Below are positions 6,014-37,243 of a stretch of 64,000 bases of DNA, piece by piece. Within the stretch, counting starts at the first letter, position 1, and each line of letters opens with the position of its first letter. A program made the translations under genes and the position numbers. Below the pieces are notes generated by a model. That model searched no databases. It saw only the letters and a list, made by a program, of their open reading frames with translations, and had not been told where the DNA came from. Source of the DNA: Flagellimonas meridianipacifica. Its GTDB lineage: Bacteria > Bacteroidota > Bacteroidia > Flavobacteriales > Flavobacteriaceae. The DNA is taken from positions 1,426,001 through 1,490,000 of the forward strand of contig NZ_PVYX01000001.1 in assembly GCF_003001695.1 (NCBI RefSeq). Reading direction: 5' to 3'.

Positions 6014-7807
6014 ATGGGGTTGGTTTCTGCCAAGGAAGTAGCTAAAGTAATAGGAGTCAATCGATATGGTTTTATTGGTACGTTCATAGGCTGGTTGTTG
6101 ATGGTGGTCACAAAGATTACTACTATGAACAGCTTCTATTCCAAAAACAAAAATCTTTCAGGGACTGAGTTTTTGGATTCCATTCTTGAACATTATGAGA
6201 TAGATTTTGAGATTCCTGAAGAGGATTTGAAAAGACTTCCCAAAACCGGACCCTACATCACTATAAGTAATCACCCTCTAGGTGGAATTGATGGGGTTCT
6301 TTTGCTAAAGCTGATGCTTAAAGAACGCGAAGATTTTAAGATAATCGCTAATTTCCTGTTACAGCGCATCGCTCCATTGAAACCTTTCATAATGCCCGTA
6401 AATCCTTTCGAAAATCATAAGGATGCTAAAAGTAGTGTGATGGGTTTTAAAACGGCATTGACCCATTTAAGAGACGGCCACCCCCTAGGAATTTTTCCAG
6501 CTGGCGAGGTTTCCACATACAGGGATGGTAAATTGGTTGTGGACAGACCTTGGGAAGAAGCGGCCATTAAATTAATTCGAAAGGCGGAAGTCCCTGTTGT
6601 TCCTATTTATTTTCATGCCAGAAACAGTCGACTTTTCTATCGTCTATCAAAAATTAATGATGTTTTTAGAACTGCAAAATTGCCATCAGAGCTAACTACC
6701 CAAAGCAGAAGGCCAATCAAAGTTAGGGTGGGTCAACCCATATCCGTAGCTTCTCAAAAAGAGGAGGAAACCTTGGAAGGTTTTACCGAATTACTTCGGA
6801 AGAAAACCTATTTGTTGGCCAATGCTTTTGAAAAAGAGCGGCTTATTGATAAGGTTCCCACAACCTTGAAAATCCCAAAAGCCCCAAAGAAGATTGCTTC
6901 GGCGGTGCGGGTTGAGGTCTTGGAAGGTGAGATTGAAAAGTTACGGGAAAAGGATTGTAGGTTACTGCAGAGCAAGAATTATGAGGTGTATTTGGCCCAA
7001 GAAAAGGAAATGCCGTTTATCCTTAAAGAAATAGGCCGGCAACGGGAGATAACATTTCGTGAAGTAGGCGAGGGTACCAATAACCCTATAGATTTGGACC
7101 AATTTGATTCGTATTATCACCATCTGTTTCTTTGGGATGATGAAGAAAAGGCCATAGTAGGGGCATATAGAATGGGACTGGGCAGTCATATTTTCAAAAA
7201 CTATGGCATTGACGGATTCTATCTTCAGGACCTGTTCCGGTTTGAACCAGAATTATATGATATGATGAGCAAGTCCATTGAAATGGGGCGGGCATACATA
7301 GTAAAGGAATACCAACAGAAACCAATGCCTTTATTTTTACTTTGGAAAGGTATCGTACATACAACCTTACGATTCCCTGAGCATAAATATTTGATTGGAG
7401 GCGTGAGTATAAGCAACCAATTTTCCAATTTTTCAAAATCCCTGATGATTGAATTCATGAAATCCAATTATTGGGATCCCTATGTGGCACAATACATCCG
7501 TCCCAAAAAAGAATTCAAAGTACAGCTGAAGGACGCGGACAAGGAGTTCGTTTTCGATGAAACCCAAGCGGACCTAAATAAATTTGATAGATTGATAAGC
7601 GAAGTTGAACCCGGCAGTTTAAGGTTACCGGTGCTTATAAAAAAGTATATCAAGCAAAATGCAAAGGTAGTTGCGTTTAATGTAGACCCGCTCTTTAACA
7701 ATTCAGTAGATGGATTGATGTACATTAAGATTGCCGATTTGCCTGAAAGTACGGTAAAACCGGTTATGGAAGAATTTCAGGCAGAGCTGGAACGGAAAAC
7801 CGTGTAG
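6014..7807 (+). CDS. olsF: OlsF-like bifunctional acyltransferase (amino-acid lipid synthesis)
   Basis: 597-residue fusion. Residues about 60-290 are a PlsC-type lysophospholipid acyltransferase domain with NHPLGGIDG at 86-94 and FPAGEVS as the substrate motif; residues about 320-590 are an OlsB/GNAT-like N-acyltransferase (hemolysin-like COG3176) domain with GAYRMGLG and EMGRAYI. Known OlsF enzymes make ornithine lipids by performing both acylations in one protein, and related Bacteroidota enzymes make glycine or serine lipids, so the amino acid used here is open. The PlsC motif has five residues between His87 and Asp93 rather than the usual four. The next gene starts 1 bp after the stop. 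Confidence 0.8.
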   Translation: MGLVSAKEVAKVIGVNRYGFIGTFIGWLLMVVTKITTMNSFYSKNKNLSGTEFLDSILEHYEIDFEIPEEDLKRLPKTGPYITISNHPLGGIDGVLLLKLMLKEREDFKIIANFLLQRIAPLKPFIMPVNPFENHKDAKSSVMGFKTALTHLRDGHPLGIFPAGEVSTYRDGKLVVDRPWEEAAIKLIRKAEVPVVPIYFHARNSRLFYRLSKINDVFRTAKLPSELTTQSRRPIKVRVGQPISVASQKEEETLEGFTELLRKKTYLLANAFEKERLIDKVPTTLKIPKAPKKIASAVRVEVLEGEIEKLREKDCRLLQSKNYEVYLAQEKEMPFILKEIGRQREITFREVGEGTNNPIDLDQFDSYYHHLFLWDDEEKAIVGAYRMGLGSHIFKNYGIDGFYLQDLFRFEPELYDMMSKSIEMGRAYIVKEYQQKPMPLFLLWKGIVHTTLRFPEHKYLIGGVSISNQFSNFSKSLMIEFMKSNYWDPYVAQYIRPKKEFKVQLKDADKEFVFDETQADLNKFDRLISEVEPGSLRLPVLIKKYIKQNAKVVAFNVDPLFNNSVDGLMYIKIADLPESTVKPVMEEFQAELERKTV

Positions 7808-7808
7808 C

Positions 7809-8813
7809 ATGGGAACAAGAATTTTGCTTTTTACCCTTTGCTCTTTTATGATTACGTTTGAGTCCTTACTTGCACAGGATTATCTTACCGGTCAGGTAAT
7901 CAGTGCCTCTTCAAATGAACCACTTTCCCACGTATCCATTTTTTACGATGGTACTACGCTCGGAACTACGACTAATGAGGCCGGGTTTTTTGAAATAAGA
8001 TGGGTAAAAGGTCTTTCATCCCCTTTGATAATAAGTTTTATCGGTTTTGAGAGCATTGAAATTGATGAAATAGAGTCCTCAGATTTAGGTGTGCTAAAAC
8101 TGAAACCAAAAACTGTTGAGCTTAACGAGGTGGTTTTGGAAGAAGATATTTGGAGCAGGGAAAAGAAACTTGCCATCTTCTTGGAAGAATTTCTTGGAAC
8201 TACAAAAGCCGGTTTGGAATCAACCATTATGAACCCAGAGGCTTTGATACTTAGGTTTTCAAGTGCAGAAAAAACACTTTATGCTTTTTCAGATAAACCA
8301 TTACTTATTACAAACCCTTATTTGGGTTATTCAATAAGTTGCGTGTTGGAAAATTACGAAACCAAGTTTGTGGATATTGATGAAAAAAGGCCGGATGTAG
8401 AGGTTACAATTTTTTCTACCAGAACCCTTTTTAGTGAAAACAAGGGAAAAAAGATTGACAAAAGAAGAAGAAAGGCCTATGAAGGCTCCGTGCTTCATTT
8501 TATGCGGTCTCTTGCCAGCAAGGACCTTGAAAAACAAGGGTTTAGAGTGTTCAGTGGCGGATTTCAGATTGACCCTTATAGCAGACTAAAGCTCAAAAGC
8601 TTGAAGTTATATACAGAAGTAACAGTTCTTAAAAAAATACTGTATATCCAATTTGAAAACAGGAAAAATTCGTTGATGAAATCGGAATCATCCATTTTTT
8701 TTATTGATGATTACGGGAATCATAGACCAACCAAGAGTGTCCTTTTTGGTGGTGAAATGGGCACCTATAGACTGGCAAACCTACTGCCCTTAGATTATCG
8801 CCCTGTAGACTAA
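7809..8813 (+). CDS. secreted protein with carboxypeptidase-regulatory-like domain
   Basis: 334 residues with an N-terminal signal peptide ending near SLLAQ (residue 23). Residues about 25-105 form a CarboxypepD_reg-like beta-sandwich (LTGQVISASSNEPLSHVSI, GTTTNEAGFFEI), the domain used by many Bacteroidota envelope proteins. The remaining 220 residues are not recognised. It follows olsF with a 1-bp gap, so the two are co-transcribed; a role in the cell envelope is inferred from the signal peptide and partner. Convergent with arsC: the stops overlap by 4 bp. Confidence 0.72.
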   Translation: MGTRILLFTLCSFMITFESLLAQDYLTGQVISASSNEPLSHVSIFYDGTTLGTTTNEAGFFEIRWVKGLSSPLIISFIGFESIEIDEIESSDLGVLKLKPKTVELNEVVLEEDIWSREKKLAIFLEEFLGTTKAGLESTIMNPEALILRFSSAEKTLYAFSDKPLLITNPYLGYSISCVLENYETKFVDIDEKRPDVEVTIFSTRTLFSENKGKKIDKRRRKAYEGSVLHFMRSLASKDLEKQGFRVFSGGFQIDPYSRLKLKSLKLYTEVTVLKKILYIQFENRKNSLMKSESSIFFIDDYGNHRPTKSVLFGGEMGTYRLANLLPLDYRPVD

Positions 8814-9232
8814 TTGGTCAGCTCCTCTTTTACAAATTCATACATAAAATCTTTGATTTCCTCCCTGGTTTTCAAAAAGGCTTCATGGATTTCTTCCCTG
8901 GTTCCTTTAACCTTAGAAGGGTCTGAAAAATTGTGGTGAATTCGTTCTGCATTTTTTGAAGGGATAAATGGACAGTTTTCCTTGGCATGATCGCAAACTG
9001 TAATGATATAATCCCATTCTATGCCTTCATATTCATCCACGTGGTTTGAAGTATGGTTGGAAATATCAATTCCATCTTCTTCCATTATGGAAACCGCTCC
9101 TGGGTTCAATCCATGGGTTTCTATTCCCGCGCTATATACGTTGGCCAAAGAATCTTGGAAATAATTCAGATAGCCATGTGCCATTTGACTTCTACAGGAA
9201 TTACCTGTGCAAAGAACCAATACGTTTTTCAT
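8810..9232 (-). CDS. arsC: thioredoxin-type arsenate reductase / LMW phosphatase family
   Basis: Reduces arsenate to arsenite using a cysteine relay. 140 residues. The phosphatase-like P-loop CTGNSCR is at 8-14 (C8, R14); the redox pair C80 and C87 lies in CDHAKENC, and D104-P105 is the general-acid position. This C8/C80/C87 triad matches thioredoxin-coupled ArsC (C10/C82/C89) rather than a plain tyrosine phosphatase. Last gene of the arsR-led operon. No arsenite pump (ArsB or Acr3) is seen nearby. Confidence 0.88.
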   Translation of the reverse strand: MKNVLVLCTGNSCRSQMAHGYLNYFQDSLANVYSAGIETHGLNPGAVSIMEEDGIDISNHTSNHVDEYEGIEWDYIITVCDHAKENCPFIPSKNAERIHHNFSDPSKVKGTREEIHEAFLKTREEIKDFMYEFVKEELTN

Positions 9233-30792: not shown

Positions 30793-30874
30793 GCCTCGGT
30801 GGCGGAATTGGTAGACGCGCCGGATTCAAAATCCGGTTCTTTCGGGAGTGTGGGTTCGATTCCCACCCGAGGTA
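30793..30874 (+). tRNA. tRNA-Leu (anticodon CAA)
   Basis: 82 nt. Acceptor GCCTCGG/CCGAGGT (G-U at 1:72, then A73), D arm with GAATTGGTAGAC, anticodon stem CCGGA/TCCGG around loop TTCAAAA (anticodon CAA), a long class II variable arm (TTCTTTCGGGAG), and T arm GTGGG-TTCGATT-CCCAC. The 3' CCA is not encoded. It marks the left side of the integrated element. Confidence 0.95.
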
Positions 30875-31200: not shown

Positions 31201-32373
31201 ATGAATTTTAAAGACGAATTTCAAAAATATGACATTGATGAAGAGAATAATCTTCGATATAAAAGAGATTTAGAGGAAAGATTGTCTAAGAAATCTAGGA
31301 TTGCTTTTTATGAGAGACCAAAGTCCTTGATGAAAGGCAATCTATTATTTGCCTCTGCTCTTTTCGCGACAAGTTTATTTCTCATTCATTTTGTTGCGTC
31401 CTTCTTCGAAAATGAAAATGTTACCGCCAATACTATAATCGAAGATTTCTCCTTTTTTATCTCGATTTTATGTGGAGTGGGCTTTTATTTAATAAACCTT
31501 GCAGCTGATAAATTGAGAAGTTTTATCGTCAATTTAGTCGATTTGACGAGGGATGTTAACAGAGAAAAAGCTGAATCCTTCTTTAAAATTTACATAACGG
31601 ATTTTTTAAGCAAAAAACGACAACTACTATTTGGATTAATTTTTGGAGCTCTTAATGTTATTGTTGCTCTGATTTTAGGAGTTTGTTACCAAGAGATGAA
31701 GTATTACTATGTGTTTACAACTCTCATGATTCAAATATTTATTATTGGGTTTATTGGAGGAATATCTGTAAATCAGACTATAGTTGTTTTAAAGTTGATT
31801 GATAAAATTTCTGTAAAAGACGACATTAATTTAAAACATTTTTACCCTGATAAATGTGCTGGTACTTTGATAATAGGAGACATACTATTTCGCTTTTCAA
31901 TATACTTTATTACTATAGGTATATTCATTTTCATTTTCATGCATAATTTTGAGTGGACTAATCTTAAAAATGGATTTGCTTATAAGTACTATGTTAAAGG
32001 ATTGGCTATTTTTTGGGAGATTTTCCCTTTTTTGTTAGCTGCTGCAATTTTCTTTCTCCCGGCCAAAAAAATAAATTCAATTTTGGATGAATATAAAGTT
32101 TTTGAACAGCTGAAGATTCGTAAAAGACTGAAACATTTATCTGATTTAATGCTAGATTTAAAACCTGAAAATCCTGATTCTAAGCAAAAACTGAAAGTGC
32201 TAAATCATCATTTTAAAAGACTAGAAAAAATTGATAGTTCTCTAGAAGAATTGAATACATGGCCTTATGATTTCAAATATAGAGCAACATTTCTAAGTGT
32301 TTTTATTCCTGTGTGTGTTGCCGTAATACTGGAGATTACCAAACAAATAATATCTAACTTTTTACAATTTTGA
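31201..32373 (+). CDS. unknown polytopic membrane protein
   Basis: 390 residues, not recognised. Charged N-terminus (residues 1-45) rich in Lys/Glu/Arg, then six or seven hydrophobic helices (about 48-68, 80-100, 140-165, 170-195, 225-250, 265-290 and 365-385), with a charged cytoplasmic-looking coiled segment KVFEQLKIRKRLKHLSDLM at about 300-350. No catalytic motif visible. Strongly AT-rich compared with the chromosomal genes, as expected of recent transfer. It stands alone next to the attachment side of the element. Confidence 0.6.
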   Translation: MNFKDEFQKYDIDEENNLRYKRDLEERLSKKSRIAFYERPKSLMKGNLLFASALFATSLFLIHFVASFFENENVTANTIIEDFSFFISILCGVGFYLINLAADKLRSFIVNLVDLTRDVNREKAESFFKIYITDFLSKKRQLLFGLIFGALNVIVALILGVCYQEMKYYYVFTTLMIQIFIIGFIGGISVNQTIVVLKLIDKISVKDDINLKHFYPDKCAGTLIIGDILFRFSIYFITIGIFIFIFMHNFEWTNLKNGFAYKYYVKGLAIFWEIFPFLLAAAIFFLPAKKINSILDEYKVFEQLKIRKRLKHLSDLMLDLKPENPDSKQKLKVLNHHFKRLEKIDSSLEELNTWPYDFKYRATFLSVFIPVCVAVILEITKQIISNFLQF

Positions 32374-32541
32374 TATTTTCGCATAGCTCTCAATACTCAT
32401 ATTTAGACTCTTGTCGTCGATTATTAATGAGTTCAAGCAATATTTACTTCGCTTTTGTTAGTTAACCCGTTCAGCACATTCCCCTATATTCCGTTGCTCT
32501 TCATTCTGGGAAAAGAGCTTCACTCAAATATTCTTGGACAC

Positions 32542-32629
32542 AATCCCCAATTTTAGCTTTCCATTCTGCTAACCCTTCCCGCTGGGGGCTGGGAAGGAAC
32601 TCTTCATTCCCTAGCTAAAATTGGGGATT
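32542..32629. repeat. long nested hairpin 1
   Basis: Perfect 17-bp outer arms AATCCCCAATTTTAGCT (32542-32558) and its complement (32613-32629); an inner 7-bp stem CCTTCCC (32574-32580) / GGGAAGG (32591-32597). Confidence 0.85.
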
Positions 32630-32632
32630 AAG

Positions 32633-32739
32633 TCCGCTTTTTCAGCGGAAAGACATCGCCATGGTTTTCTTAACGGTATTTATGGCAAGGACTTCCTTAG
32701 TCCTTGCTCGGAAATCCCTAAAAACCAAACCGCTGTCTT
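32633..32739. repeat. hairpins 2 and 3, directly abutting
   Basis: Hairpin 2: TCCGCT (32633-32638) / AGCGGA (32644-32649). Hairpin 3: AAGACA (32650-32655) / TGTCTT (32734-32739), GGTTTT (32663-32668) / AAAACC (32721-32726) and an apical perfect 9-bp stem GCAAGGACT (32685-32693) / AGTCCTTGC (32699-32707). Confidence 0.8.
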
Positions 32740-33137
32740 ACACATTTTAAGGGGTTTATAATGGCTGAAGCCTTTGCTGTTTTTCGGGTCATCGAAAAAC
32801 AGGACGTACATAACCAATTCTACATTAAACCCAACTGCTCAAATCGCTTAACTGTCGGTACGCTCTGATCGCAACCGGCTTTAAAAGAATTGCTAATGCC
32901 CTTATGGAACTTGTCAAGACCTTGACGAGTTTTCGTGAAAAATAAGGTATCTACTTCCTTGAATCCGCCTTTGGCGTGATTACTACGTCTCAGACACACC
33001 TGATTTTTCCCAAAAAGTCTTGACAAAACCCACTTCACCCATTGGTGCCTTGCACGGAAGAAATCAAACAAACACCCCTTAAAATTTAATGTTGATTGAA
33101 TGGAAAAGGGATAATAGTAATCTTTAAATCTTTAGTT

Positions 33138-33482
33138 ATGAGTACGATTAAAAATCACGTGCAATTGATTGGAAACGTTGGTCAAGAGCCAACCATTACG
33201 AACCTAGAAAGCGGGAAGAAAGTCGCCCGATTTTCTGTAGCCACAAATGAGAACTACAAAGACAGCAAAGGCGAGAAACAAACGGACACTAACTGGCATA
33301 CTATTGTTGCTTGGGGCAAGTCTGCTGAAATCGTCGAACAGTATGTAGCGAAAGGAAAGGAAGTGGGTATTGCAGGAAAGCTAAAAACAAGAACCTACAC
33401 CATTGACGATGGCAACCAACGCTATGTTACCGAGGTGGTCGCAGGTGAGATCCTATTGATGGGTTCAAAGGATAACAAGTAA
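33138..33482 (+). CDS. ssb: single-stranded DNA-binding protein
   Basis: 114 residues from ATG 33138. OB-fold SSB core: HVQLIGNVGQEPTITNLESGKKVARFSVATNENY, TNWHTIVAWGKSAEIVEQYVAKGKEVGIAGKL and a YVTEVVAGEILLMG strand (quoted in pieces). Unlike chromosomal SSB it stops at LLMGSKDNK with no disordered linker and no acidic DDDIPF-type tail, so it probably coats transferred DNA without recruiting host repair proteins through the tail. A strong terminator follows. Confidence 0.93.
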   Translation: MSTIKNHVQLIGNVGQEPTITNLESGKKVARFSVATNENYKDSKGEKQTDTNWHTIVAWGKSAEIVEQYVAKGKEVGIAGKLKTRTYTIDDGNQRYVTEVVAGEILLMGSKDNK

Positions 33483-33490
33483 TCAAAAGA

Positions 33491-33527
33491 AAGAGGGCGT
33501 GCCTGTTTAAAAGACGCGCCCTCTTTT
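33491..33527 (+). terminator. rho-independent terminator after ssb
   Basis: AAGAGGGCGTG (33491-33501) with CGCGCCCTCTT (33515-33525), one T-G pair, then TT. GC-rich stem, 8 bp after the stop. Confidence 0.85.
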
Positions 33528-33555: not shown

Positions 33556-33936
33556 ATGAAAACTCAAGTTAATGAAATAAATGAGAATTTACAGCACTTC
33601 ACGGGAACAGAAGTGTTTTACCAAATACCACTATTGAGAACAAGATTCACCGATGGTTTGAAATACCTGTCCGAAGTTGCCGAATGCTTTTGGCTTATTA
33701 CGGATGCTTCGGTAATAGCGAAAAGTCTAATGAACCGGAGCAAGTTTATCACTATTGATTATCAAAGGTTGTCAGAGGACAAACAAGACTATACAGGTTA
33801 TGAAGCTGAAATCATTTACAGCGATGGCAACGACAATGTTTTGGAAACATACCGTTACAACGCGACCGATTTTCCATTAGATGAACTACGATTGTTTTTT
33901 GTAAATAATACATTAATGTTGCCGAGTGAATATTGA
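33556..33936 (+). CDS. DUF6876 family protein
   Basis: 126 residues. Matches the DUF6876 pattern of conjugative-element proteins: LQHFTGTEVFYQIPLLRTRFTDGLKYLSEVAECFWLITD in pieces, then ITIDYQRLSEDKQDYTGYEAEIIYSDGN and a LPSEY end. Small soluble protein of unknown function regularly found beside element-borne ssb genes. Has its own terminator downstream. Confidence 0.78.
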   Translation: MKTQVNEINENLQHFTGTEVFYQIPLLRTRFTDGLKYLSEVAECFWLITDASVIAKSLMNRSKFITIDYQRLSEDKQDYTGYEAEIIYSDGNDNVLETYRYNATDFPLDELRLFFVNNTLMLPSEY

Positions 33937-33990: not shown

Positions 33991-34054
33991 GATAGACCAT
34001 TCGAACCAAGAAAAAAACGTATCTTTATTTTGCTGAATTACAGCAATAAAATTT

Positions 34055-34360
34055 ATATAGCTATCCCAATTTTTGACTTTCGCTGGTAGCTATATCCATC
34101 TATATTTTAGGCTTTGGGATTGTTGAAATTCCCAAAAAATGCAATCAGCTTTTTAGCTGGATTGTATGGAATTTTTGTCCCGCTCGCGGGACGAAATGGA
34201 ATAGCAAGAGGGTAACACGCTGCGCGGTGTTAGGTATTCCATTTCTGTTGTAAATCATTGATTTTTAGTTTGGTGAAAATCAATCGGATTTTGAAATTTT
34301 CCGCGATTTACGTCAAATACACTCAGAATGCCTGAAAATAGGGATGGATTTACGTCAAAT
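34055..34360. other. oriT: candidate origin of transfer (oriT) with hairpins and direct repeats
   Basis: In the 444-bp gap before the mobilisation genes: ATATAGCTA/TAGCTATAT (34055-34063, 34087-34095); CAATCAGCT/AGCTGGATTG (34142-34150, 34155-34164); GTCCCG/CGGGAC (34177-34182, 34187-34192); AAATGGAATA/TATTCCATTT (34194-34203, 34235-34244) enclosing AACAC/GTGTT; then two copies of GATTTACGTCAAAT (34305-34318, 34347-34360). Hairpins plus repeats next to a relaxase gene are how an oriT usually looks. The nick site is not identified. Confidence 0.6.
34305..34360. repeat. 14-bp direct repeats upstream of the mobilisation operon
   Basis: GATTTACGTCAAAT occurs at 34305-34318 and 34347-34360, starts 42 bp apart (four helical turns), which suits two bound copies of the same protein, possibly the BfmA/BtgA-like accessory protein. 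Confidence 0.75.
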
Positions 34361-34380
34361 CTTCAAAAAAGCGAAAGAAA

Positions 34381-34761
34381 ATGGACTCATTCATTACCAT
34401 CCGGTTCAAACGGAAAACCGCAAAGCGTTTTCAGGAATTTTCCAAGATGCACTTCAAAACGCACACCGATGCGATGGAAGCAATTCTCGATTTTTTCTTC
34501 TATAACGAGATTTCACCAAAGGAAAATTTAGGACCAACGGGGCGCACCATCGAAGCCAGATTACTGAAGCGCATCAATGCGGTAATTGCCATTATGCGCG
34601 ATGTGGAAAAGACCCAAACCAAACCCACGGTCGCAATGTTGCAATCGCTGTTTGAACTAGAAGAACCCAAAAAGAAACCCTTGATTCTTGAAAAGAAATT
34701 TACACAAGAAAGTAAAGAAGTCCGCTTTCGCGAAAAGCGAAACACCACCGATGAACTTTAA
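34381..34761 (+). CDS. BfmA/BtgA-family mobilisation accessory protein
   Basis: 126 residues. The N-terminal FITIRFKRKTAKRFQEFSKMHFKTHTDAMEAILDFF is a ribbon-helix-helix-like DNA-binding segment typical of BfmA/BtgA accessory proteins; then a helical part with GRTIEARLLKRINAVIAIMRDVEKTQTKPTV. It probably binds oriT and helps load the relaxase. First gene of a three-gene mobilisation operon; 11 bp before the relaxase gene. Confidence 0.82.
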   Translation: MDSFITIRFKRKTAKRFQEFSKMHFKTHTDAMEAILDFFFYNEISPKENLGPTGRTIEARLLKRINAVIAIMRDVEKTQTKPTVAMLQSLFELEEPKKKPLILEKKFTQESKEVRFREKRNTTDEL

Positions 34762-34772
34762 AAATTGTCACT

Positions 34773-35804
34773 ATGTACTTCAATATTACCGCACAAAAAT
34801 TAGGAACGAATTATAGTCAAAGTTCGGTGGATTTTGTAGACTATCTCGAAAAGGAAAATAAGGGTTTGGAAAAGGAAGAGATGGAACATTTCTTTAACCA
34901 ATATGGGGATGAGATTTCAGCCAACGAAGTGGTCAAAGAGATTGATGGAAATACGGCAAAACTCAAAAAGAAAGAACCAAAATTCTATTCCATTACAGTC
35001 AGTCCATCCAAATATGAATTGCGAAAACTTCAGAACATCAGCGAAGATTTAAAGCTATACACTCGTGAGCTGATGAAGGATTATGCCGCATCATTTAATC
35101 GGGAAATAAACGGACGACCAGTTGCAGTAGATGACATAAAATACTTCGCCAAAATTGAACACCAACGCACCTTTAAGGGCACGGATTTTCAGGTGCGAGA
35201 AAACCAACCTTTTGCTACCAAGATACTTGAACTAAAACAGGAAATCCGGCAAATTCAGCGAGGCGCATCCAAAGGAAGCATCGATAGGTTAAAGCTCAAA
35301 ATTGCCAAACTGGAACGTGAAGCGCCGCACCAGCAAAACAGTAAGCGCATTGTCCAGGGAATGAAAAAGGAAGGCAACCAAAGCCATATCCATGTTATCG
35401 TCAGTCGAAAGGATGCATCTAATTCCTTTAGTCTTTCCCCAGGAAGTAAGCACAAGGCATCTGAAGTTGAAATGCACGGTAAAAAAGTAAAGCGTGGGTT
35501 TGACCGAGACCAATTTTTTGAAAGGGCCGAAAAGACGTTTGATAAGACTTTCGGCTACAAACGCAACTATGCTGAGACCTATAAAGCGAAGAAAGATTTT
35601 GTGAAGAATCCTAAACTCTACTTTGCTGCTTTAATGAAATTACCAGCCAATGAAAAAGCCTTTGCTTTTAAAATGATGGGCAAATCTGGTGTGCCATTGG
35701 TGCCTAATATCCCAACAAGTAAAGCGCAACTGGCACTCAAAGCTATTAAACAGTTGCGAAAAGGCGTTGAAGTCGCAGTGAAATCAAGCTCTATAGGAAT
35801 ATGA
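34773..35804 (+). CDS. DUF5712 / MobB-type relaxase
   Basis: 343 residues. N-terminal MYFNITAQKLGTNYSQSSVDFVDYLEKEN, then FYSITVSPSKYEL and, near residue 205, the NQSHIHVIVSRKD segment with the His-x-His expected of relaxase metal sites. A tyrosine in the N-terminal region (Y14 or Y24) may be the DNA nucleophile. Nicks oriT and pilots the strand. Its stop overlaps the coupling-protein start (ATGA). Confidence 0.8.
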   Translation: MYFNITAQKLGTNYSQSSVDFVDYLEKENKGLEKEEMEHFFNQYGDEISANEVVKEIDGNTAKLKKKEPKFYSITVSPSKYELRKLQNISEDLKLYTRELMKDYAASFNREINGRPVAVDDIKYFAKIEHQRTFKGTDFQVRENQPFATKILELKQEIRQIQRGASKGSIDRLKLKIAKLEREAPHQQNSKRIVQGMKKEGNQSHIHVIVSRKDASNSFSLSPGSKHKASEVEMHGKKVKRGFDRDQFFERAEKTFDKTFGYKRNYAETYKAKKDFVKNPKLYFAALMKLPANEKAFAFKMMGKSGVPLVPNIPTSKAQLALKAIKQLRKGVEVAVKSSSIGI

Positions 35805-37243
35805 GTTGGTCATTGGTAGAAATAGTAATCTATATTGTAGTGCCTGTGCTGTCATTAGTCATATTGTTCTATGCTCTTTACAATAGCGAACCCACAGGTA
35901 AAACGGATAAAAAGTATCAGGTAAAGTTTCCCACGAAATCGGGAAACTTAAAAATTGATAACATAAAGCGTGGCGCATCCGTCATAGGATCTGCAGGAAG
36001 TGGGAAGACCGAAAGTGTGGTATATGGATTTCTAAAGCACTTTAGTAAAAACGGTTTTTGCGGTATCATACATGACTACAAAGATTTTGAATTGACTGAA
36101 ATGGCATATCCGCTTTTTAAGGATAGCAACATCCCTATGAAGGTCATCTCTTTTGACAAGATTATCCACAGGGTCAATCCCATTGCACCAAAGTACTTAG
36201 AGAATGAAGAAAGTGTCAACGAAGTTTCAAGGGTACTTATTGAAAACCTTTTGGAACAACGAGAATCGGGAACTACCGGAACAACTAAATTCTTCAACGA
36301 TGCTGCAGAAGGGCTAATCGGAGGACTAATTTGGAAACTGAAATCCGATTATCCGCAGTTCTGCACACTACCACATTTGATCGCGATATACCAAATGCTC
36401 GATACTGATAGCCTGATTCAGTTTTTGGAAACCAATACGACATCAAGGGCACTAGCAGATGCATTCATAAGTGGCAAAGATTCTGAACGGCAGACTGCGG
36501 GTGTTAAAAGCACCTTGGCGAATGCGTTGAAACGCATCAGCACCCAACGGATTTTTATGGTATTGTCCGCAGATGAAGTACCATTAAATATCAACAGCGA
36601 AGAAAATCCAGCAGTCATTTCGGTGGTGAACAATCCCAAATTTGAAACCTCATATTCACCAGTTATTGCCACTATAATACATACGATTATCAAGCAAATG
36701 AGTGTGCGCAACTCCAAACCTTCTTTTTTGTTGATGGAAGAAGCACCTACCATAAGATTATTGAATATGCACCGCATTCCCGCAACGCTGAGGAGCTATG
36801 ACATTGCCACCATCTATGTAATGCAAGATAAAATCCAAAATGATATGATGTATGGTGACAAAGCAAGCAAGGCGATTTTGAGTAACCTATCCTATCAGTT
36901 TTTTGGTAAAGTCAACGATCCAGAAACCGCTAAATATTATGAACGCTTTTTTGAAATTATCAAGAACCCTACTAAAAGTGTGAGCAAAGCTGCAAACATT
37001 TTTAAAACCGATACCCGAATTACTAAAGGTGAAAGGGAAGTTTCTAAGAGACGTGCTGATATTTTCTTTAGATTAAAGCAGGGTGAGTTCGTCACTTTTG
37101 CGGATGGGAGAGATAAAAGAGTACAGTTCATCCTACCTAAAATCAAAAAATTACTTCTTGAGAAAAAAGAAGAGTTTTCAAATGTTGAGATTAAGAAGAA
37201 CTTTGACAATGTATATCAAGAAGTAAAGTCCATTTTTCAATAA
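35801..37243 (+). CDS. type IV coupling protein (VirD4/TraG-family)
   Basis: 480 residues. One N-terminal membrane helix (residues 7-27), Walker A GSAGSGKT at 63-70, Walker B-like FLLMEEAPTIRLL near 310, and the SNLSYQFFGKVNDPETAKYYERFF segment usual in Bacteroidota coupling proteins. Links the relaxosome to the secretion channel. Third gene of the mobilisation operon (BfmC/MobC position). Confidence 0.88.
   Translation: MSWSLVEIVIYIVVPVLSLVILFYALYNSEPTGKTDKKYQVKFPTKSGNLKIDNIKRGASVIGSAGSGKTESVVYGFLKHFSKNGFCGIIHDYKDFELTEMAYPLFKDSNIPMKVISFDKIIHRVNPIAPKYLENEESVNEVSRVLIENLLEQRESGTTGTTKFFNDAAEGLIGGLIWKLKSDYPQFCTLPHLIAIYQMLDTDSLIQFLETNTTSRALADAFISGKDSERQTAGVKSTLANALKRISTQRIFMVLSADEVPLNINSEENPAVISVVNNPKFETSYSPVIATIIHTIIKQMSVRNSKPSFLLMEEAPTIRLLNMHRIPATLRSYDIATIYVMQDKIQNDMMYGDKASKAILSNLSYQFFGKVNDPETAKYYERFFEIIKNPTKSVSKAANIFKTDTRITKGEREVSKRRADIFFRLKQGEFVTFADGRDKRVQFILPKIKKLLLEKKEEFSNVEIKKNFDNVYQEVKSIFQ

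Follow-up and report, generated by a model that had tools for sequence, protein, structure and literature searches.

What does a gene-free stretch of 198 nucleotides, folded into hairpins that abut one another, do upstream of ssb? The question arises in a 64,000-nucleotide stretch of Flagellimonas meridianipacifica DNA (the window, to which all coordinates refer). An initial annotation had described three adjacent hairpins at 32542-32739 and had suggested a structured non-coding RNA, a single-strand origin (sso) or an ssi-like priming site. Inverted repeats and folding place the hairpins exactly there. They form the left end of a larger structure, conserved, non-coding and built of several domains, which extends from about 32465 to 33087 between a cargo gene and ssb of a Flavobacteriaceae ICE. 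Its parts are:

32465..32532, minus strand: conserved flank, CAGCACATTCCCC..GGGAAAAGAGCTTCA, the outer limit of similarity
32533..32636, minus strand by association with the core only: first hairpin, with 17-bp perfect arms and an inner 7-bp stem
32536-32558/32613-32635: inverted repeat of the first hairpin, 91% complementary
32542-32558/32613-32629: perfect 17-bp arms within this repeat
32633-32649, minus strand: six-bp hairpin TCCGCT/AGCGGA between the two long hairpins, read in the sequence and paired in the folds of both strands
32650..32739, minus strand by association with the core only: third hairpin, with three tiers and a 9-bp apex
32650-32668/32721-32739: inverted repeat of the three-tier hairpin, 79% complementary
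32685-32693/32699-32707: perfect 9-bp apex of the three-tier hairpin
32744..33085, minus strand: core, 342 nt here, three-armed, with a second stem besides the terminal stem that closes it; the most conserved part
32744-32754/33075-33085: terminal stem of the core, ATTTTAAGGGG/CCCCTTAAAAT, with small variation in most copies

Folded as RNA, the 198 nt reach −79.1 kcal/mol on the plus strand (shuffled controls −48.5 ± 4.0; z −7.7), a value attained by none of 200 shuffles, and −83.6 kcal/mol on the minus strand (z −7.0); folding is thus far better than in shuffled controls on both strands. The annotation had also regarded the stretch as gene-free and as more structured than a terminator needs; there is indeed no open frame of at least 80 aa in 32542-32739, and the stems are far above terminator size. 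What it had taken for the whole is one end of a larger structure reaching about 33087.

Conservation of the structure

In a DNA search with 32360-33110, the most widespread part, 32741-33087, lies to the right of the hairpins first reported, and the longest matches start at 32453-32471 of the window (query positions 94-112). Altogether, 85 copies were located. Three without an ssb match (L011, L028, L078) were dropped, leaving 82 with a downstream ssb on the same strand; core ends were not found in L018, L071 and L087, and the remaining 79 cores with both ends (334-359 nt) were reduced to the 47 that differ by more than 5% from one another, which form the alignment set. A second core match in L145, by its coordinates the self-complement of one arm, was also dropped.

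Besides its terminal stem and a second stem, the core has three arms, two of them long and one short. RNAalifold finds 88 pairs in the 47-core alignment, 41 of which have changes on both sides; the Ribosum-scored structure has 106 pairs, 44 of them with changes on both sides, and 94.9% of cells are paired. The covariation score is 0.242 against 0.125 in shuffles, with none of 500 shuffles reaching 0.242; the structure is derived from the same 47 sequences and the shuffles leave relatedness in, so that these figures are not probabilities. When pairing partners are slid along the alignment, paired cells fall to 35-56%. The loops are well conserved in the same alignment.

The core is non-coding: no frame is stop-free in more than one of the 47 copies, and the lengths of the cores are distributed over the three phases (18/16/13). 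Open stretches of at least 100 aa occur in at most five of the 47 cores in any single frame, L003 being an example.

Two candidate explanations were set aside. The window's core contains an 83-aa minus-strand frame with a TTG start (32820-33071), and a coding remnant was rejected since frames are not kept across the 47 copies. A terminator was rejected as well; runs of six or more T follow the minus-strand core in only 8 of 47 copies, and the stems are too large.

Both long flanking hairpins are conserved as well. Judged by eye from individual folds, the three-tier hairpin is present in 42 of 49 distinct copies; the seven without a clear one (L070, L075-L077, L081-L083) were left out. Folding energy of this region lies below z −2 in 34 of the 49 copies on the minus strand and in 30 on the plus strand. 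All 42 hairpins together aligned poorly (16 pairs), and 16 close copies were therefore used for the count: 90.5% of cells are paired and 12 of 32 pairs have changes on both sides, a number reached by 4 of 500 shuffles, while further pair types are no more frequent than in shuffles (269/500). The 17-bp hairpin was found in 58 distinct stretches, other genera included, some of which are partial matches of one copy. Its 18 aligned copies, from which three of 21 distinct units were omitted (diverged second copies in L179 and L010, plus L200), are 95.5% paired, with both-side changes in 11 of 32 pairs (0/500 shuffles). A diverged second form of this unit lies near the first at L100:9005-9083, L110:7284-7364 and L185:2261-2339.

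Pairing is thus kept among homologues in the core and in both long hairpins. The annotation had proposed covariation as a check and had named unconserved pairing among relatives, together with the lack of a transcript, as the outcome that would speak against it; the pairing is conserved. Conserved, non-coding stem-loops, a feature expected of an sso, are accordingly present in all three domains.

Strand preference

For the core, the consensus structure of the plus strand has an energy of −135.8 with 76 G-U and 95 A-C cells, and that of the minus strand −156.9 with 359 and 21. Such a comparison, in which each strand is scored on its own consensus, is biased towards the folded strand, and it was therefore repeated with predictions that allowed no G-U pairs. 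Minus-strand pairs of the core then hold 23 G-U cells in 13 pairs against one A-C cell, and the pairs predicted on both strands nine against one; pairs common to both unrestricted structures have 74 G-U and 43 A-C cells. Minus-strand energy is lower in all 47 distinct cores, with RNA and DNA parameters alike. As DNA, 32645-33090 folds to −84.1 on the minus strand (z −9.0) and −67.8 on the plus strand (z −6.6). That the folding strand is the minus strand, which is antisense to ssb and its template, is well supported for the core, to which this support is limited.

Signals from the flanking hairpins are mixed. For the three-tier hairpin, G-U and A-C cells number 51 and 13 in the minus-strand structure, 19 and 39 in the plus-strand structure, and 37 and 13 in common pairs; the corresponding values for the 17-bp hairpin are 81 and 7, 54 and 24, and 10 and 3. 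With G-U forbidden, they become 4 and 4 for the former and 1 and 6 for the latter, so the strict test does not favour the minus strand.

Genomic context

To the right of the core lie ssb and a set of mobilization genes:

33138..33482, plus strand: ssb, 114 aa (PF00436, 7.3e-34), starting about 50 nt past the core
33556..33936, plus strand: DUF6876 protein, in a position that a RadC-like protein occupies in most of the relatives compared
34143..34270 (end approximate), plus strand: predicted oriT-like block, with AGCAAGAGG at 34203-34211 followed by a TAACAC/GTGTTA inverted repeat at 34213-34232
34381..34761, plus strand: BfmA/BtgA family mobilization protein, mobA (NF041200, 3.8e-24)
34773..35804, plus strand: MobB family relaxase, DUF5712 (NF041495, 1.1e-121)
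35801..37243, plus strand: T4SS coupling protein (PF10412, PF02534)

This arrangement was compared across 72 contexts (71 relatives and the window), which are non-independent, with several per genome. In 71 of them ssb follows on the right in the orientation of the core, which ends 43-189 nt ahead of it, and mobA is placed likewise in 67. The same holds for the DUF5712 relaxase in all 58 contexts that have one and for the coupling protein in 56 of 56. On the left, DUF932 is co-oriented in each of the nine contexts having it, and ParB-like genes occur in some.

A further 20 contexts were selected mostly because their scores were low or their location unusual, and they over-represent exceptions; 11 have an intact ssb (L199, L201-L204, L209-L212, L214, L215), whereas of the other nine L196 has a split ssb, L205 a broken one and the rest none. 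Cores, some of them partial, occur without an intact ssb in L105, L197, L198, L200, L205, L206, L207, L208 and L213. In L213 the core stands directly ahead of radC; in L105 (9374-9709) it precedes a relaxase of the Bacteroides MobB subfamily, with no ssb, no oriT-like block and an AGCTAG-rich gap. L205 retains a full-length core match and the oriT block with its broken ssb. L200, L207 and L208 are fragments without mobilization genes. Because of such exceptions (L105, the first of two cores in L199 and nine of the 20 odd contexts, L213 among them), the core is not strictly tied to ssb; it mostly accompanies mobilization genes.

Four islands (L122, L148, L149, L150) carry the core, ssb, radC, the oriT block, mobA and, judged by eye, an integrase-like gene, with no recognised relaxase within the fetched 7.5 kb; a helper ICE probably mobilizes them. 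Genes are broken or missing at the small copies L198, L205 and L206, which may be remnants in decay and not small elements that are still active; little weight is therefore given to them. No exact direct repeats of at least 13 nt were found in limited stretches around these copies.

Two other features of the window belong to this neighbourhood. Just past ssb, an inverted repeat at 33490-33526 ends in a short T run and is a probable terminator. Left of the element, a tRNA gene (30793-30874) is a possible integration site; its terminal 12-18 bases do not recur exactly anywhere else in the window.

The predicted oriT

The oriT-like block, between radC/DUF6876 and mobA, is conserved. A profile of it matches 69 of the 72 first contexts (all except L105, L151 and L154) and 14 of 21 second contexts, and the nearest match is always right of the core and co-oriented; as the profile was built from 66 sequences right of the core, the side is given by construction there, and the 21 second contexts are the freer test. 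L103 has an additional match on the opposite strand 6.6 kb away.

On the strand that is transferred, nicking usually takes place 3' of the inverted repeat. Since the conserved non-repeat flank of the block is on the left, this usual placement would make the minus strand the transferred strand and put ssb on the leading side.

Left of the block, 34048-34095 contains TTTTTGACTTTC, similar in most aligned copies and flanked by the inverted repeat ATATAGCTA/TAGCTATAT. Just ahead of mobA, at 34290-34380, the word GATTTACGTCAAAT occurs twice, and other copies have a different repeated word of their own; these words are perhaps sites for the mobilization protein.

Distribution

With 32360-33110 as the query of the DNA search, 48 of 99 genomes, among them the window's own, gave matches at E ≤ 0.01, a few of which are short and weak; these genomes are nearly all of the same genus, often with several matches each. 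A covariance model of the core reaches further. In a family sample it matches 59 of 397 genomes, which represent 48 of 237 genera, some few with partial matches only; in an order sample it matches 8 of 296 and in a phylum sample 7 of 395, all in Flavobacteriaceae. The window's genome is part of these samples, which overlap one another, and with strict filters and few candidates per genome weak relatives may escape. The exact core motif is present in ten records: eight from Muricauda, Allomuricauda, Flagellimonas or Seonamhaeicola, one from an uncultured Tenacibaculum and one from a Bacteroidia.

Kinship with catalogued elements was sought in several collections. The sole Rfam 15 match in the window is the tRNA at 30793-30874, with none for the element. 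When 32450-33140 was searched permissively, five unrelated families matched weakly (the best at 18.1 bits, where 55 are needed); a known RNA family was rejected, no Rfam 15 score of the element exceeding the gathering threshold. In distant mode, 32460-33110 matched none of 72,556 plasmid records, among which F-type plasmids are assumed to be, and one exact motif pattern found no match in viral contigs. A phage or plasmid origin was rejected, as neither the phage nor the plasmid collection gave a match. No description of the element was found in a literature search that covered mainly open-access papers.

Possible modes of action

The element is probably a cis-acting single-strand DNA element of an ICE leading region, which would start RNA synthesis on the minus strand. 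The reading builds on the conserved structure, the strand bias of the core, and position and orientation relative to ssb and the mobilization genes; from these we infer that the minus strand is the T-strand and that the element acts, and starts RNA synthesis, as single-stranded DNA. In conjugation, the minus strand, as ssb template, would enter the recipient from the predicted oriT at about 34.2 kb, and the core with its companion hairpins would fold some 1-2 kb behind the nick into a duplex-like start site. RNA polymerase or primase of the recipient could begin RNA there, towards oriT, through ssb and the RadC/DUF6876 gene; the same start may also, or instead, yield a primer for the second strand.

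Covariation in three domains, the fixed orientation and folding of the core on the ssb-template strand argue for this mode of action, as do the relaxase-less islands (L122, L148-L150) and L205, which keep core and oriT block. On the other side, the predicted oriT and the T-strand direction are drawn from conservation only, the flanking hairpins fail the strand test, and L105 is an exception. The fixed orientation could partly be inherited synteny, and unpaired positions are highly conserved, as one would expect of an RNA too. ParB, DUF932, SSB and RadC domains resemble a leading-region set; against this, the main text of PMC11541004 names neither DUF932 nor RadC.

Promoter signals were also sought. 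A linear scan of the core/ssb junction on both strands for the Bacteroidota promoter consensus, which is TTTG and TAnnTTTG, gave chance level (0/47 score 9/10), and no −35/−10 or −33/−7 boxes were recognised in the element. The lack of an ordinary promoter at the junction counts for the single-strand reading, the lack of boxes in the element against it. The annotation's interpretation (non-coding RNA, single-strand origin or ssi-like site) is partly supported: pairing is conserved, and the fixed orientation, the folding strand of the core and the predicted oriT on the right suit a T-strand element; promoter boxes were not found. Its argument that the neighbouring ssb favours a single-strand role agrees with a core upstream of ssb in 71 of 72 contexts.

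A structured non-coding minus-strand RNA that targets the mobilization machinery or works in trans, like the sgm-sRNA of SGI1, is rather unlikely. Strong core covariation with G-U changes and the well conserved loops would suit it, and there is a precedent, since an essential sRNA of SGI1 is encoded beside oriT (PMC9299015). It is opposed by the lack of any promoter above chance upstream of the minus-strand core (0/47 score 9/10), by T runs of six or more within 260 nt past the core in only 8 of 47 copies, and by retention of the core in islands that a helper ICE could presumably supply with the RNA; neither the missing signals nor the island retention is decisive. If the element were such an RNA, it would be a new, large mobile-element RNA found across many genera of one family.

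Another role as DNA is improbable: extruded hairpins could serve a relaxosome, excision or segregation protein or as a recombination site, or a selfish hairpin repeat could hitch-hike with the ICE, as the diverged second copies of the first hairpin near it (L100, L110, L185) might suggest, but place and orientation beside ssb and the mob genes are constant and the branched core is much more elaborate than any simple repeat. It is very improbable that plus-strand RNA serves the ssb mRNA as a structured 5' leader or attenuator; the core does end 43-189 nt ahead of a co-oriented ssb in 71 contexts and the plus strand folds well too, but it folds worse in 47 of 47 cores, in its own best structure A-C cells outnumber G-U cells by 95 to 76, and cores occur without an intact ssb in nine contexts, ssb being split in L196.

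Relation to known single-strand elements

For the preferred reading, a single-strand DNA element, the closest parallels are Frpo1 and Frpo2, single-strand promoters of F-like plasmids. PMC9849209 describes Frpo as non-coding sequences of the F leading region that, once single-stranded, fold into a stem-loop carrying promoter boxes. On F, Frpo2 precedes ssb and is required for early ssb expression: after its deletion, an Ssb fusion no longer rose significantly in transconjugants. Like these ssi sequences, the present element is non-coding, strongly folded, upstream of ssb and, with the oriT predicted, probably in a leading region; as in Frpo, the folded strand is the ssb template, which is well supported here for the core. 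Unlike Frpo, it is multi-branched, spans about 340-620 nt, shows no −35/−10 boxes in a linear scan and belongs to Bacteroidota rather than Enterobacteriaceae; sequence kinship to Frpo/ssi was not found in the plasmid records, in distant mode.

ICEBs1 provides a second parallel. Its sso1 is an orientation-specific single-strand origin near mobilization genes, just past the relaxase gene, with three predicted stem-loops; a 76% identity with the sso of a plasmid led to its discovery (PMC4595007). The present element resembles sso1 and the sso of rolling-circle plasmids as a folded candidate single-strand element of an ICE near mobilization genes; it differs in having no known relative, in its phylum and in standing ahead of ssb, and the orientation-specific activity in that account is that of sso1. 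With the sgm-sRNA of SGI1 (PMC9299015) it shares being non-coding and beside the oriT (here predicted) of a mobile island, but that RNA is a processed transcript, and no promoter or terminator pattern is seen here.

Because of its size and branching, the lack of a match in the plasmid collection and the absence of recognisable promoter boxes, the element is not classed as an Frpo or as a known sso, although it most likely works like one. Bacteroidota RNA polymerase is not known to use the boxes that define Frpo. It is possible, if somewhat doubtful, that the element represents a new class of folded single-stranded DNA control element, about 620 nt long and many-branched, RNA-like in build and working as DNA, which would start early expression and second-strand synthesis in ICEs and relaxase-less islands of Flavobacteriaceae.

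How the incoming strand of an ICE is first read and copied is poorly known; PMC4595007 stated in 2015 that virtually nothing was known of how the transferred single-stranded DNA of ICEBs1, or of any ICE, becomes double-stranded. With the present element, transcription or priming on single strands can be tested directly outside the Enterobacteriaceae model. It is widespread, well bounded and alignable, with arms and conserved loops, and the mobile elements in which it lies also carry ssb and RadC-like genes.

The F plasmid, with Frpo1 and Frpo2, carries more than one copy per element (PMC9849209), and so does L199, in tandem. Its cores, at 7363-7707 and 8688-9033, are about 1 kb apart; the first stands before an uncharacterised 180-aa frame and the second before ssb, so that nature itself offers a way to ask if more than one gene is served by the core.
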